Part shown: in pieces, positions 13,165-39,330 of the stretch | Position numbering within the stretch: position 1 is the stretch's first letter | Layout: the number at the start of each line of letters is the position of its first letter | Source: a bacterium | GTDB taxonomy: Bacteria > Armatimonadota > Fimbriimonadia > Fimbriimonadales > Fimbriimonadaceae | Length of the DNA stretch: 64,000 bases | Assembly (NCBI GenBank): GCA_013823945.1 | Contig: PNMZ01000001.1 | Coordinates: 1-64,000, forward strand | Direction of reading: 5' to 3' | Translations under genes and position numbers: made by a program | The notes under the pieces: generated by a model | Seen by the model: only the letters and a program-made list of their open reading frames with translations | What the model was told of the DNA's origin: nothing | Database searches by the model: none

Positions 13165-14766
13165 ATGCTGTTCGCCATCAATCCCCCGATCCAATACGAT
13201 CTTGTGATCCGGAATGCAACTATCGCTGATGGCACTGGTAACCCTACATACCGCGCTGATATTGCCATCGCCGACGACCGTATCGCCGAAATCGGATTCA
13301 ATCTCATGCCCGGAAAATCTGAGATTGATGCAAAAGGCAAAGTCGTTACTCCTGGGTTCATTGATGTCCATACCCATGCCGAGAATGTCACCGAGCTCCC
13401 CAATGCCGAAAATTTCGTGCGCATGGGCGTGACAACAATCGTTATCGGAAACTGCGGCGGTTCGGCCCAAGACATCAGTAATTTCTTTAGCGAAATCACT
13501 CGCAACCCCGTTTCCGTCAACGTTGCCTCATTAATCGGCCATAACACAATTCGACGGGCCGCAATGAACGGCAATCACGACCGGCCGCCAACTCCCGAAG
13601 AACTGAATTCCATGAAGGATATGGTTCAAAAAGCAATGGACGACGGAGCCGTTGGCCTTTCAACTGGCCTGATCTACCTCCCCGGAACCTACTCCAAAAC
13701 CGATGAAATTATCAAACTTGCCCGGGTCGCCGCCAAAAACCAAGGTCTCTACGCCACCCACATGCGAAGCGAAGGAACCGAAATCTTCGATGCGATCGAA
13801 GAAATGATCACCATCGGCAAGGAATCCGGCGCGCGCGTCCAATACTCTCACATCAAACTGTCGGGGAAAAACATGTGGGGCAAAACCAATCAAGTTCTCA
13901 GCCGATTGGAACAAGCACGCGAGGATGGACTTGAACTCACTCAAGATCAATACGCCTACACCGCAAGCAGCACCAGTATTTCAACTCTGATTCCAGATTC
14001 TGCTCTCGATGGAGGAACAGCTGAGTTCAAAAAACGACTCGAGGATCCCGAACAAAAATCGAAAATCATTAAGTACATGAAAGATCGGCTCGCTCTTCGG
14101 CTACAAGCTGACTACGACTATGCGGTCATCGCATCGTGCCGGGCGGATACCCGTCTCAATGGTAAAACAATCGTCGAAGCCGCCCAGATTCGGCTTGGCC
14201 AGTCAACCCTCGACGACCAGATTGAAACGATCTTCTGGATGCAACTCAATGGTGGTGCAAGCGGCGTTTTTCATGGGATGGATGAACAAGATATCAAGTC
14301 ATTCATGGCCCACCCCAACACAATGATCGCTTGCGACGCTTCGTGCCGAGAATTCAACTCTGGAGTCCCCCACCCTCGCGGATACGGCAACAATGTCCGA
14401 GTCCTCCAAAAATACGTGCAACAAGAGAATCATCTCCGGCTCGAAGACGCCGTTCGACGAATGACATCGCTCCCCGCTCAAACCTTTCGATTCCAAAATC
14501 GCGGATTGATCAAACCCGGCTTCTTTGCCGACCTCAACATTTTTGACCCGGCAAGCCTCAAGGAAAACACAACCTACGCCACCCCACACGCTTATTCCAC
14601 TGGCTTCACAGCCGTCATCGTCAACGGAAAAATAGTTGTCCGCGACGACACTCATACTAGTCTCCGACCGGGACAACCCCTCCGCCGAATCGGGTCAACT
14701 CCTAGTGATAATGCAACTTTATTTCAAAAACCAAATTGCAATGATATTGCATTATGTTGCCAATAA
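13165..14766 (+). CDS. N-acyl-D-amino-acid deacylase family amidohydrolase
   Basis: 533 residues. It starts with the small beta-sandwich of the amidohydrolase superfamily (YDLVIRNATIADGTG). The metal-binding HTH motif follows (His69 and His71 in FIDVHTHAE), then IGNCGGS, GHNTIRR and THMRSEG, typical of D-aminoacylases. The enzyme would hydrolyse N-acyl-D-amino acids or related amides in the cytoplasm. The last 30 residues (Cys- and Asn-rich) do not look conserved and overlap a candidate regulatory box at 14736-14752. An in-frame start a little downstream is possible. Confidence 0.85.
   Translation: MLFAINPPIQYDLVIRNATIADGTGNPTYRADIAIADDRIAEIGFNLMPGKSEIDAKGKVVTPGFIDVHTHAENVTELPNAENFVRMGVTTIVIGNCGGSAQDISNFFSEITRNPVSVNVASLIGHNTIRRAAMNGNHDRPPTPEELNSMKDMVQKAMDDGAVGLSTGLIYLPGTYSKTDEIIKLARVAAKNQGLYATHMRSEGTEIFDAIEEMITIGKESGARVQYSHIKLSGKNMWGKTNQVLSRLEQAREDGLELTQDQYAYTASSTSISTLIPDSALDGGTAEFKKRLEDPEQKSKIIKYMKDRLALRLQADYDYAVIASCRADTRLNGKTIVEAAQIRLGQSTLDDQIETIFWMQLNGGASGVFHGMDEQDIKSFMAHPNTMIACDASCREFNSGVPHPRGYGNNVRVLQKYVQQENHLRLEDAVRRMTSLPAQTFRFQNRGLIKPGFFADLNIFDPASLKENTTYATPHAYSTGFTAVIVNGKIVVRDDTHTSLRPGQPLRRIGSTPSDNATLFQKPNCNDIALCCQ
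14736..14752. promoter_or_regulatory. TTGCAA-N5-TTGCAT box, copy 1
   Basis: TTGCAA, five bases, TTGCAT and then TATG. The same twelve arm bases with the same spacing and the same following TATG occur before the MerT-like gene at 39298-39314, on the other strand. It lies about 110 bases upstream of the Cys-rich lipoprotein gene. Fur-family regulators such as Nur bind TTGCAA-N5-TTGCAA-type sites, so a metal-responsive operator is plausible but unproven. Confidence 0.4.
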
Positions 14767-14864
14767 GCCTAGCAACAAATTCAATTTTGAACCCATCTAA
14801 ATAACATGGAACTGATTAAATTTTAATCGCATTATAATGTGACGTCCATTTAGGGACTTTGCTC

Positions 14865-15203
14865 ATGAAAAACCAACTCCTCACGCTCGTCGCTGCAGTT
14901 GCCTGTAGCTTTGCCATCATCGGTTGTTCCACCACCGAAGCTCCCGCTACCGACACCAAACCCGCCGAAGCTGGTTCAACCGCAACCGCTGAAAAAGCAA
15001 CCTGCACCGATTGCGGACACGAGATGGACAAGTCAGCAATGAAAGAAGTTGATGGCAAATTGGTCTGTGTCAACTGTGCCGAAAAGGGTGACGGAATGCA
15101 AACCGCCGACATGATCGACTGTCCCTGTGGAAAGCAAATCGCTGTAGCAGATGCTGTTGAAAAAGATGGCAAGAAAGTCTGCGCTGACTGCGCAAAAATG
15201 TAA
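14865..15203 (+). CDS. Cys-rich zinc-knuckle lipoprotein
   Basis: 112 residues from the ATG at 14865. A lipoprotein signal ends in a lipobox (FAIIGC), followed by a Thr/Ala/Glu-rich linker. Four CxxC-type motifs then follow (CTDCGH, CVNC, CPCG, CADC), which could bind zinc or another soft metal. A TATAAT at 14833-14838 may be its -10 element. It probably sits on the outer face of a membrane as a metal-binding or metal-sensing lipoprotein. The TTGCAA box upstream is shared with a MerT-like gene, which fits a metal-related role. No named family is recognised. Confidence 0.75.
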   Translation: MKNQLLTLVAAVACSFAIIGCSTTEAPATDTKPAEAGSTATAEKATCTDCGHEMDKSAMKEVDGKLVCVNCAEKGDGMQTADMIDCPCGKQIAVADAVEKDGKKVCADCAKM

Positions 15204-36631: not shown

Positions 36632-37255
36632 CTAGGGAACAATTCCCGACGAATCATAGATCGTAATCCGCTGGGTTCCCCGCTCCCTCACAATCCCAAC
36701 AAGGTACCCCAGCATCGCCCCTTCCGCTGGGAAAGCATCATAGCGAGTATTCAACGGCAACAAAACATACTGCTCGCCATCATGCTTCAACTGCTTCACG
36801 GTAACCAGTCCCTCGTCAGAACGAAACAGAATCACCTGCCCAATCCTCGGCACGTCCGTTCGCTGAAAGACACAAACATCCTGCGGCTCCAAAAGCGGAT
36901 ACATCGAATCCGAACTAATCCGACAAGCGAACCGCCCCCGCGGATCGCCCATCTCTGGCGGCACAAATTCAAACGTCTCGCTCTCAAAAGGGTCAGTCCA
37001 ATTCACCGGATCACTAGCCGCAATATATCCAATGTAAGTCACCGGAACCAACAGCTGACTTGCTGGGATCAAAGGATCACCCACCTCCCCGCCATCAAAC
37101 CCCAACCCCCGAAGTCGCACCATCACCTTCGGGGCAATCTCTGCCCCACCAGATTCCATCATCGCCACCAAACTCCGAGAAACGCCCAATTCCTCCGCCA
37201 ACTCTTGCTGCGTCCACCCCTTCACACGCCGAAATTCTTTCAACTTGTCAACCAT
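36632..37255 (-). CDS. LexA/CI-like repressor (HTH-XRE plus S24 peptidase)
   Basis: 207 residues. Residues 5-50 form an XRE-type helix-turn-helix (WTQQELAEELGVSRSLVAMM). Residues 68-200 form a LexA/S24 self-cleaving domain with nucleophile Ser117 (SSDSMYP) and general base Lys154 (LVTVKQL). The cleavage-site loop reads YIAASDP, so the scissile bond would be Ala80-Ser81 instead of the usual Ala-Gly. It is divergent from the sigma factor gene across 68 bases rich in TTGACAA repeats. It is the likely switch protein of the phage-derived cluster, released on DNA damage if cleavage works. Confidence 0.85.
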   Translation of the reverse strand: MVDKLKEFRRVKGWTQQELAEELGVSRSLVAMMESGGAEIAPKVMVRLRGLGFDGGEVGDPLIPASQLLVPVTYIGYIAASDPVNWTDPFESETFEFVPPEMGDPRGRFACRISSDSMYPLLEPQDVCVFQRTDVPRIGQVILFRSDEGLVTVKQLKHDGEQYVLLPLNTRYDAFPAEGAMLGYLVGIVRERGTQRITIYDSSGIVP

Positions 37256-37323
37256 GTCAATATTTTACCATAATTTTGACAATCCACTTGACAAAATAGT
37301 AGACATATAGATACTATAATAGC
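37245..37323. promoter_or_regulatory. Divergent promoter/operator of repressor and sigma factor
   Basis: The region holds TTGTCAA at 37245-37251, ATGTCAA at 37254-37260, and TTGACAA at 37276-37282 and 37288-37294. A TATAAT at 37315-37320 lies three bases before the sigma ATG, and on the other strand TAAAAT lies six bases before the repressor ATG. The inverted and direct repeats suggest cooperative repressor binding over both promoters. Exact -35 elements cannot be assigned. Confidence 0.5.
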
Positions 37324-37806
37324 ATGGGCTATTCACATGATAACTCTGAAATTCGTTGGAATCAAGACACCGAGCAGTACGTCCGCCGCGCAACCCGCAC
37401 ATGGTGTTCACGCCTCGGAATCAAAGGCGAAGATGTCAAAGACCTCGAGCAAGATGCCGTAATGACCGCATGGAATAAAGTCGAAAATGGCAAAATCCAC
37501 TACAAAGAGGGACTCTGGTTCATCGCCCGCAACACCGTGCTTGACTTCCGAGCGAAAGCTAGTCGAATCGATACCACCGAACTCGACGAACAACTCGCTC
37601 GAGAACCGTCAAATCCACTTGACAAAATTCTCATCGAAGAAGTCCAACGGGAGTTCCCCGAGCTTGTCCTCCTCGCCGCCGCAAGGGCCGACGGTTTCGA
37701 GTGGGATCTCATCGCCCAATCCTTGGGCATCAGTTCCGGCACTCTCCGTGTGCGCTACAGCCGATTAGTTAAGAAGGCCAACGAACACTTTAACAAATCT
37801 AGATAA
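37324..37806 (+). CDS. Small RNA polymerase sigma factor (ECF-like)
   Basis: 160 residues. Region 2 includes DVKDLEQDAVMTAWNKV and FIARNTVLDFRAKASR. Region 4 is a helix-turn-helix (GFEWDLIAQSLGISSGTLRVRYSRL). It is divergent from the LexA-like repressor and next to the isolated portal gene. It is therefore well placed to activate late phage-type genes once the repressor is removed; that link is inference. It ends at a strong terminator. Confidence 0.85.
   Translation: MGYSHDNSEIRWNQDTEQYVRRATRTWCSRLGIKGEDVKDLEQDAVMTAWNKVENGKIHYKEGLWFIARNTVLDFRAKASRIDTTELDEQLAREPSNPLDKILIEEVQREFPELVLLAAARADGFEWDLIAQSLGISSGTLRVRYSRLVKKANEHFNKSR
37612..37628 (+). repeat. 17-base exact repeat of the operator region
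   Basis: AATCCACTTGACAAAAT is identical to 37281-37297 in the promoter region and lies here inside the sigma factor gene (encoding NPLDKI). It could be a secondary operator, or a trace of local copying. Confidence 0.45.
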
Positions 37807-37813
37807 GTCAAAA

Positions 37814-37836
37814 GCCGCCCCCGCCAAGGGGGCAGC
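37814..37836. terminator. Hairpin terminator between sigma and portal genes
   Basis: GCCGCCCCC pairs with GGGGGCAGC (one mismatch) around a five-base loop, between the convergent stops at 37806 and 37839, followed by a moderately T-rich stretch. Confidence 0.7.
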
Positions 37837-37838
37837 TC

Positions 37839-38888
37839 TTATTCTTCAAACCAAACCCGCAGATCATCCCCGCTTCCAAATTCGTGCAGCAACTGATCTG
37901 TAAAAGTATTGGACAAATCTTGCCACAAAGGAACCAAGAATTCCTCTGTCGCCGCTGCTCGCGCTTCCCCCATATTCGAGTAAGTCGCCCGGTCAAGCCC
38001 CGCCCCGAGCCCAACTACAACCGCCGGAATCCCAAGCACTGCCGTGATCCGCTCTTCTGGCAGCCGGTTGAGCTGGCCAATCGCCAAATCATCCGGCTTG
38101 AACCCAATCGGCGTAACTTCTGCCGGAAAAGTCGGCACAATTACTCCGCCCGCATTCTCCCGACTTGTTGCCTGACGCATCCGCTCCGCCACAAAATCTG
38201 CATCCGCCTGAGTCAACCGAATCCCCTCCCCCTTTGCCGAAACAATCAGGCTTGGTACAGGATTGCCCAACAAACTCTGGCTATAAGCCGCAATCTGATT
38301 GTCAGTGGCAATCTGCCGTACGACTGATTTTATTCGGGAAATTCCCATGCATGGTCTTTCCGGATCAAGCCCATCCCGATCATGCAAAATGTCTTCTCGC
38401 CCAACTCGAATCACACCGTTCGATCCCAAAATCTCATAGTAATCCACAAAATTCGGACGATCACGCACCTCCACGATCCGGACACAAGAATGCGGGAGCC
38501 ACTCCAATCCAATCATCCGCCCTTCCGCATTCCGAATCTTCAATGCAAAAGCATTTCCATCCAGAATGCGCGAATATACTAGGGCCGAAATCAATTCACG
38601 ACCCGACAAATTCGCCCGGTCACGAACATCAATCATTCCCTGGGGCCGCCGCAAAATCTCCCCCAACGAGTGGTCAACCCGGACCCACTCCGCACCGTCA
38701 AACCCCTGAATCAAAAAACTTGCCCGCCCCGCATTGCGCATCGCCCAAAATACGCAAGCCATCACTGCGCTATTCTGAGTCGCATCGGCTTCCCGCGCTG
38801 GCACCGCCCCTGGTGACCACAAAAAGCTCGCCGCACTTCCCCGATTCCAATTCAACCCCTTCGTAAAAATTCGCTCAAACAGTCTCAT
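37839..38888 (-). CDS. HK97-type phage portal protein
   Basis: 349 residues, slightly short for the family. Typical segments are NSAVMACVFWAMRNAGRASF (N-terminal helix), LISALVYSRILDGNAFALKIRN, DILHDRDGLDPERPCMGISR, LPEERITAVLGIPAVVVGLG, and the C-terminal NMGEARAAATEEFLVPLW. The portal forms the twelve-fold ring through which DNA is packaged. In phages and GTAs it lies between terminase and prohead protease. Here it is 6 kb from the terminase and 8.6 kb from the protease, with cellular genes in between. Confidence 0.9.
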   Translation of the reverse strand: MRLFERIFTKGLNWNRGSAASFLWSPGAVPAREADATQNSAVMACVFWAMRNAGRASFLIQGFDGAEWVRVDHSLGEILRRPQGMIDVRDRANLSGRELISALVYSRILDGNAFALKIRNAEGRMIGLEWLPHSCVRIVEVRDRPNFVDYYEILGSNGVIRVGREDILHDRDGLDPERPCMGISRIKSVVRQIATDNQIAAYSQSLLGNPVPSLIVSAKGEGIRLTQADADFVAERMRQATSRENAGGVIVPTFPAEVTPIGFKPDDLAIGQLNRLPEERITAVLGIPAVVVGLGAGLDRATYSNMGEARAAATEEFLVPLWQDLSNTFTDQLLHEFGSGDDLRVWFEE

Positions 38889-38941: not shown

Positions 38942-39295
38942 TTAGTGAACGTGACCAGCTTGAGTGTTCAAAAATCCTACTAGGGTAATCCCTACCACAA
39001 CACACGTCACAAACCACATCGAACCAATCTTGACCCGCCGCTTTGCATGTAGATCAGAATCGCAACTCCCACAATCATGGCAAGCATGAGGTTTCTTGTA
39101 AGCCCCCCAAAAGCCAAATCCCAAACTGAGCAAGCTAAACGCCACCATCCACCACCGGTAAGGCTCCAAAGCATGTAGCCACCCCGCCGTGACACTCATC
39201 CCGCCAAATGCAAACAAAACCGTCGATCCACAACACGGAACGTGCGCCAACAAAGCCAGCCCAGCCGAGCTCACCGAAGCGATTACCGATTTCAT
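38942..39295 (-). CDS. MerT-like small membrane transport protein
   Basis: 117 residues from the ATG at 39295. The first membrane segment carries a vicinal Cys pair (LALLAHVPCCGSTVLFAFGG), as in MerT-type mercuric transporters, followed by LEPYRWWM and a second segment. A cytoplasmic loop with CHDCGSC comes next, then a third segment. It would move a soft metal ion (mercury or another thiophilic metal) across the inner membrane. No merA or merR is nearby. It has its own promoter with an embedded palindrome. Confidence 0.7.
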   Translation of the reverse strand: MKSVIASVSSAGLALLAHVPCCGSTVLFAFGGMSVTAGWLHALEPYRWWMVAFSLLSLGFGFWGAYKKPHACHDCGSCDSDLHAKRRVKIGSMWFVTCVVVGITLVGFLNTQAGHVH

Positions 39296-39297
39296 AA

Positions 39298-39330
39298 TGC
39301 AATTATATTGCAATAAGTCAAATTTCTCAA
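39298..39330 (-). promoter_or_regulatory. Promoter with TTGCAA-N5-TTGCAT box, copy 2; leaderless start
   Basis: On the minus strand TTGAGA, a 17-base spacer, and TATAAT form a near-consensus promoter. The -10 lies inside TTGCAATATAATTGCAT. The ATG at 39295 follows six bases after the -10, so transcription would start at or within the start codon, giving a leaderless message. The palindrome over the -10 suggests direct repression. It has the same arms as the box at 14736-14752. Confidence 0.55.

Follow-up and report, generated by a model that had tools for sequence, protein, structure and literature searches.

The genome under study, a 3.16-Mb Fimbriimonadaceae assembly in 19 contigs (G000), carries a 15-bp perfect inverted repeat, TGCAAT-N3-ATTGCA, at a small set of unlinked genes, and this box is very probably the operator of the single Fur-family regulator of the genome, a Zur-type zinc sensor governing a zinc regulon. 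The box itself is confirmed as real. The sequence evidence points to a regulon that would include a ZigA metallochaperone GTPase, a MerT-like membrane protein and pilin-like proteins, and the metal sensed is most likely zinc.

The box in the window, the genome and the phylum

In the window, the whole 64,000-nucleotide stretch of DNA analysed, the box is present twice, as TTGCAATGATATTGCAT at 14736–14752 on the forward strand (core 14737–14751), with the same sequence in the sister genome G078, and as TTGCAATATAATTGCAT at 39297–39313 on the reverse strand, before a MerT-like gene. The first-pass annotation had described one box, TTGCAA-N5-TTGCAT, shared by these two unlinked loci, and the sharing holds: the core is matched perfectly at the two sites, each of which is trailed by TATG (TTATG at both the lipoprotein and the MerT site), although its coordinates for the second, 39298–39314, are off by one. 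The perfect 6-3-6 repeat TGCAAT-N3-ATTGCA is the better description of the sites. Its two copies in the window compare with 0.03 expected, and none of 100 dinucleotide shuffles reaches 2; when up to two mismatches are allowed, the looser TTGCAA-N5-TTGCAT form stays close to chance, with 28 matches vs. a shuffle mean of 14 and one shuffle in 100 reaching 28.

The genome-wide search that the annotation had proposed returns five perfect sites, not many random ones. These lie at a lipoprotein gene, the MerT-like gene, a ZigA gene, a divergent pilin-like pair and a DUF2752 gene. The background, estimated from 31 sites in 206 phylum genomes outside the family, is ~0.15 perfect copies in a genome; against this, five copies have a Poisson P of ~6e-7, which together with the shuffles rules out a chance origin of the five-site set. 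Six core sites with one mismatch and six near-matches to TTGCAA-N5-TTGCAA that are not boxes (one exact, the other five with a single mismatch) were considered and left out of the regulon. Of the 12 sites, 11 fall within open frames of at least 110 codons on either strand, which does not in itself prove gene status, and the last (L009) is upstream of an ORF taken as an SRP protein. The only exact TTGCAA-N5-TTGCAA of the genome (L119, C2:410347) is inside a long open frame. The two-mismatch 17-bp pattern has little power genome-wide (145 matches vs. 103 in the reversed control).

A perfect copy is present in 7 of 8 genus genomes and 15 of 85 family genomes; the reversed pattern is present in none of the 85. 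The 19 perfect sites of the genus all fall at five gene classes (MerT-like, 6; pilin-like, 6; ZigA, 3; lipoprotein, 2; truB/DUF2752, 2), some pilin sites also facing a lipoprotein-like or reductase-like gene on the other side. The other 77 family genomes hold 12 perfect sites, which is chance level: MerT, ZigA or pilin genes account for five (G069, G050, two in G055, G048), five lie elsewhere (one in G008, G020, one in G055, G060, G072) and the remaining two, both in G008, fall outside the gene-context count. In the phylum as a whole, a perfect copy is present in 43 of 291 genomes; outside the family, by a count of sites only, 31 copies in 28 of 206 genomes are again about chance level, the reversed control matching 4 genomes. 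Because these external sites are at chance level and all 19 genus sites fall at the five classes, the motif in its strict form is a signal of the genus, and looser forms occur beyond it. None of the five boxes differs between G000 and G078, in 255-bp contexts that are 87–91% identical.

Genes behind the box

The MerT-like gene (38942–39295, reverse strand) has its start codon within the TATG that follows the box. Its product resembles mercuric transporters in matching PF02411 at 40.4 bits (cut-off 32.9) and in bearing the vicinal cysteine pair HVPCCG, yet differs from them in falling far under the NCBIfam MerT cut-off (35.1 bits vs. 150), in having its box in common with ZigA, and in its surroundings: the four flanking genes scanned encode a phage portal protein, a protein of no family, an LptF/G protein and a LexA/S24-like protein, with no merA, merP or merR among them. 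Downstream of the MerT-like gene (window 36635–38888, reverse strand), the genes for the portal protein (PF04860) and the LexA/S24-type repressor may be a prophage remnant. A search of solved structures for a relative of the MerT-like protein returned no real match. Six loci in named records, found with a MerT-like alignment, belong to Armatimonadetes bacterium Uphvl-Ar1 (97% identity), to MAGs of Fimbriimonadaceae and to one Chthonomonas MAG, hence the assignment of the genome to Fimbriimonadaceae, Armatimonadota.

The box is found before MerT-like genes across genera. A protein search detects such genes in 21 of 85 family genomes, and a matrix trained on three ZigA and seven pilin sites only, hence non-circular for MerT sites, scores at least 12 within 130 bp upstream of 18 of the 21 and in none of the 461 control windows taken at these loci; with the threshold lowered to 10 the figures are 18 of 21 vs. 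1 of 461. The three genes lacking a box are those of G011, G031 and G062. In two genomes (L060 in G079, L065 in G083) two overlapping boxes 11 bp apart precede the MerT-like gene, a possible sign that an operator binds more than one dimer.

The promoter of the gene, TTGAGA (39325–39330, reverse strand) and TATAAT (39302–39307, reverse strand) with a 17-bp spacer, matches the consensus at 11 of 12 positions, a level reached by 0 of 300 shuffles in G000 and 2 of 300 in G078. Its −10 hexamer is inside the box, so that transcription would be expected to start at or beside the A of the ATG and the mRNA may be leaderless. Zur bound at this site would directly exclude RNA polymerase. Overlap of the box with a sigma-70 promoter was also considered as a general rule and is unsupported beyond the MerT genes of G000 and G078: of 23 box sites scanned, the 17 compared with shuffled controls (all but two pilin, two lipoprotein and two DUF2752 sites) show no excess in promoter score (P 0.45).

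The COG0523 GTPase of G000 passes the NCBIfam ZigA cut-off (650 bits vs. 600), which makes it a zinc metallochaperone by family, and the box lies 3 nt before its gene. ZigA genes, found by protein family, are boxed in 6 of the 11 family genomes that have one and unboxed in 5, by a matrix trained on 18 sites that include three of the six ZigA boxes (that of G078 being identical to one of these); 1 of 302 control windows scores at least 11. Since several genomes form close pairs, the counts for MerT-like and ZigA genes are not all independent. COG0523 zinc metallochaperone genes belong to a known class of Zur targets, according to excerpts of two accounts (PMC2770081; PMC6103462).

At the two divergent prepilin-type genes of G000, the box overlaps one predicted start and is 112 nt upstream of the second gene. 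The region between the genes of this prepilin/DUF1559-type pair (L028:3282–4773) also holds degenerate boxes besides the perfect one, with scores of 16.1, 9.9 and 8.7. Orthologues of the right-hand gene in G078, G082, G048, G080 and G084 (50–99% identity) are all boxed; the loci were reached through the box, hence this is no test of conservation. The pilin-like genes are candidate members, and what links them to the regulon is a common motif positioned over or close to the start codon.

Membership of the DUF2752 gene is doubtful, because its box, 51 nt upstream and inside the end of truB, is present in only two genomes (G000 and G078) of the eight in the genus, all of which have the orthologue behind truB.

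The lipoprotein site, 14736–14752, is the weaker member of the regulon: a single close sister genome retains its box, and the likely promoter is ~80 bp further downstream. The box overlaps the last codons of an amidohydrolase ORF (13165–14766, forward strand), and its core ends 113 nt before the ATG of the lipoprotein (14865–15203, forward strand), which has CxxC pairs and a zinc-ribbon-like character, its Pfam matches being below cut-off. The ATG of the trailing TATG opens only a 16-residue frame (14754–14804, forward strand) that begins 2 nt after the core; its start is kept in G078, where the frame has 21 residues. The likely −10 of the lipoprotein gene, TATAAT at 14833–14838 on the forward strand, was read by eye, was not listed by the promoter scan and has no good −35. 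Among the seven family genomes with a lipoprotein homologue, two (G000 and G078) have the box, and the homologues of G079, G083, G084, G057 and G058, three of which are weak partial matches, have none upstream. The case for this site is weaker than the annotation had made it, on conservation and on the lack of overlap with the likely promoter.

Even with the other sites real, this one could be a chance or decayed copy of no regulatory role, a reading to which somewhat less than an even chance is given. The five unboxed homologues, the distances to the ATG and the −10 hexamer and the background of ~0.15 chance perfect copies per genome favour it. Against it, the box is still perfect in G078, with no base changed amid differences in the neighbouring non-coding sequence, its TTATG trailer is the same as at the MerT site, and a degenerate second site, ATGCAACTTTATTTCAA at 14711–14727 (forward strand), 25 bp upstream of the main box, is kept there with a slightly higher matrix score (16.6 vs. 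14.9 in G000). If the lipoprotein does belong to the regulon, it may be a later addition in this lineage. It could then be repressed via a second promoter at the box, with a longer transcript starting near the frame at 14754; alternatively, Zur could act from upstream and activate at high zinc, as in S. coelicolor, where zitB is reported to be activated at high zinc (PMC6103462, in excerpt).

The regulator and the metal

PF01475 finds a single Fur-family protein in G000, encoded at C1:395527–395958 (55.9 bits). Its best NCBIfam model is Zur (58.1 bits, vs. 41.5 for Fur), at a score far below the Zur equivalog cut-off (NF008646, 167 bits); the regulators of all eight genus genomes match the Zur model, and several Fur and PerR models match less well by best E-value. 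Among solved structures the best matches, 2o03 (50 bits) and 4mtd (48 bits), are both named zinc uptake regulators; next come 7dh7, 3mwm and 7vo0, named only as Fur-family or metal uptake regulators and which we take to be Zur proteins, and then 3eyy (41.6 bits), called an iron uptake regulator in the structure table and presumably Nur, together with Fur entries. Both CxxC pairs, H69, C80, E91 and E103 are invariant in the eight genus regulators; the former are presumably the structural cysteine pairs and the latter residues the regulatory-site ligands. No histidine aligns with H96 of E. coli Zur, and H92 is nearby in seven of the eight.

Regulator homologues are found in 67 of 85 family genomes, and their distribution follows that of the box: the regulator is present in all 20 genomes whose MerT or ZigA gene is boxed, its match holding one in-frame TGA in two of these (G050, G069), vs. 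3 of 7 with unboxed copies only (Fisher P 0.002; MerT alone, 0.014; ZigA alone, 0.18). The annotation had likened the layout to operators of Fur-family metal sensors common to unlinked metal-related genes, and this part of its reading is supported. Its small soft-metal regulon becomes a putative metal regulon, larger than proposed with ZigA and the pilin-like genes added, and most likely serving zinc in place of mercury, nickel or copper: a ZigA target and a Zur-like regulator argue for zinc over all three.

The operator itself resembles that of a nickel sensor. The Streptomyces Nur box, given as tTGCaa-N5-ttGCAA in an excerpt of PMC3919588, has the same arms, spacing and length, and each of the five G000 boxes fits it with one mismatch, departing from TTGCAA-N5-TTGCAA at one arm end. 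The regulator could accordingly sense nickel and the MerT-like protein import it. This is improbable: the boxed ZigA belongs to a zinc metallochaperone family, 3eyy scores lower with the regulator than the zinc uptake regulators do (50 and 48 bits), and no nickel transporter, nickel enzyme or superoxide dismutase is found at the 19 perfect genus sites. Unlike the Streptomyces system, the G000 regulator is closer to zinc uptake regulators and its targets point to zinc. Ownership of the box by another family of regulator (e.g., MerR, ArsR or TetR type), with the Fur-family protein unrelated to it, is less probable still. In its favour, none of the 30 regulator loci examined has a box, a result that also speaks against autoregulation at these loci; against it, the box at MerT and ZigA genes tracks the Fur-family protein and the operator architecture is of the Fur-family type.

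The zinc regulon is best compared with Zur regulons that include COG0523 GTPases of the ZigA/YciC type, with which it shares a Fur-family regulator and a palindromic operator before a COG0523 gene, as far as excerpts of the published accounts describe them. It differs in its operator sequence, compared here with the E. coli motif only, as spelled out in those excerpts, and in having MerT-like and pilin-like targets and an unboxed ABC importer.

A proposed zinc-starvation response and its setting

Under the Zur reading, a zinc-loaded Zur dimer would occupy TGCAAT-N3-ATTGCA and block transcription; when zinc is scarce, Zur would leave the box and the genes would switch on. The regulon would then supply the ZigA GTPase, a MerT-like membrane protein that probably imports zinc, and pilin-like surface or secretion proteins.

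The genes of znuABC-type zinc importers are usual Zur targets. G000 has one ZnuA-family binding protein (contig C7), nearest to AztC, below cut-off and of uncertain metal; this ZnuA/AztC-like ABC importer has no box upstream, the best matrix score in the 13-kb stretch being 7.7, inside the ATPase ORF. No ZIP transporter passes the cut-off in any of the eight genus genomes, with one weak sub-cut-off match in G083. The unboxed importer and the lack of a ZIP transporter over cut-off would allow the MerT-like protein to serve as a zinc importer under Zur control. A lipoprotein-like ORF (L048:2541–2903, reverse strand) immediately upstream of the ZnuA/AztC-like gene has a His-rich tail, DHTGHNHAEGEGH, and is possibly a metal-binding partner.

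Links between Zur and pili have been described elsewhere. Excerpts of the respective papers report that Zur affects a pili gene cluster in Synechocystis (PMC12058595) and that, in V. cholerae, an orphan type IV pilin lies alongside Zur-regulated genes on the VSP-II island, pili not being needed for the zur phenotype (PMC8248653). Unlike in these reports, several genomes here have DUF1559-type prepilin genes with a box on or close to the start codon. Among the literature matches listed, none reports MerT under Zur or boxed DUF1559 pilin genes; the text available of PMC11647595 treats MerT and Zur as unrelated to each other, and that of PMC2823685 does not have MerT in its main part. Literature searches, limited to one library and to the matches listed, found no paper combining Zur, pseudopilin and zinc starvation, none combining TTGCAA with "Nur box" and, judged by title, no work on a Zur regulator in Armatimonadetes.

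A bolder proposal, advanced tentatively and as the less likely outcome, is that this lineage has built its zinc-starvation set from parts not known for zinc acquisition, with a MerT-like zinc importer and a DUF1559-type pilin-like apparatus for zinc capture at the surface or for secretion, both controlled by a Zur with an operator that came to resemble the Nur box by convergence. The resemblance of a Zur-type box to a nickel box is also a caution that operator sequence alone can mislead on the metal. More broadly, the findings suggest a zinc, not mercury, function for chromosomal MerT-like proteins, would tie some unexplained pilin-like proteins to metal starvation, and provide a testable zinc regulon for a poorly studied phylum.
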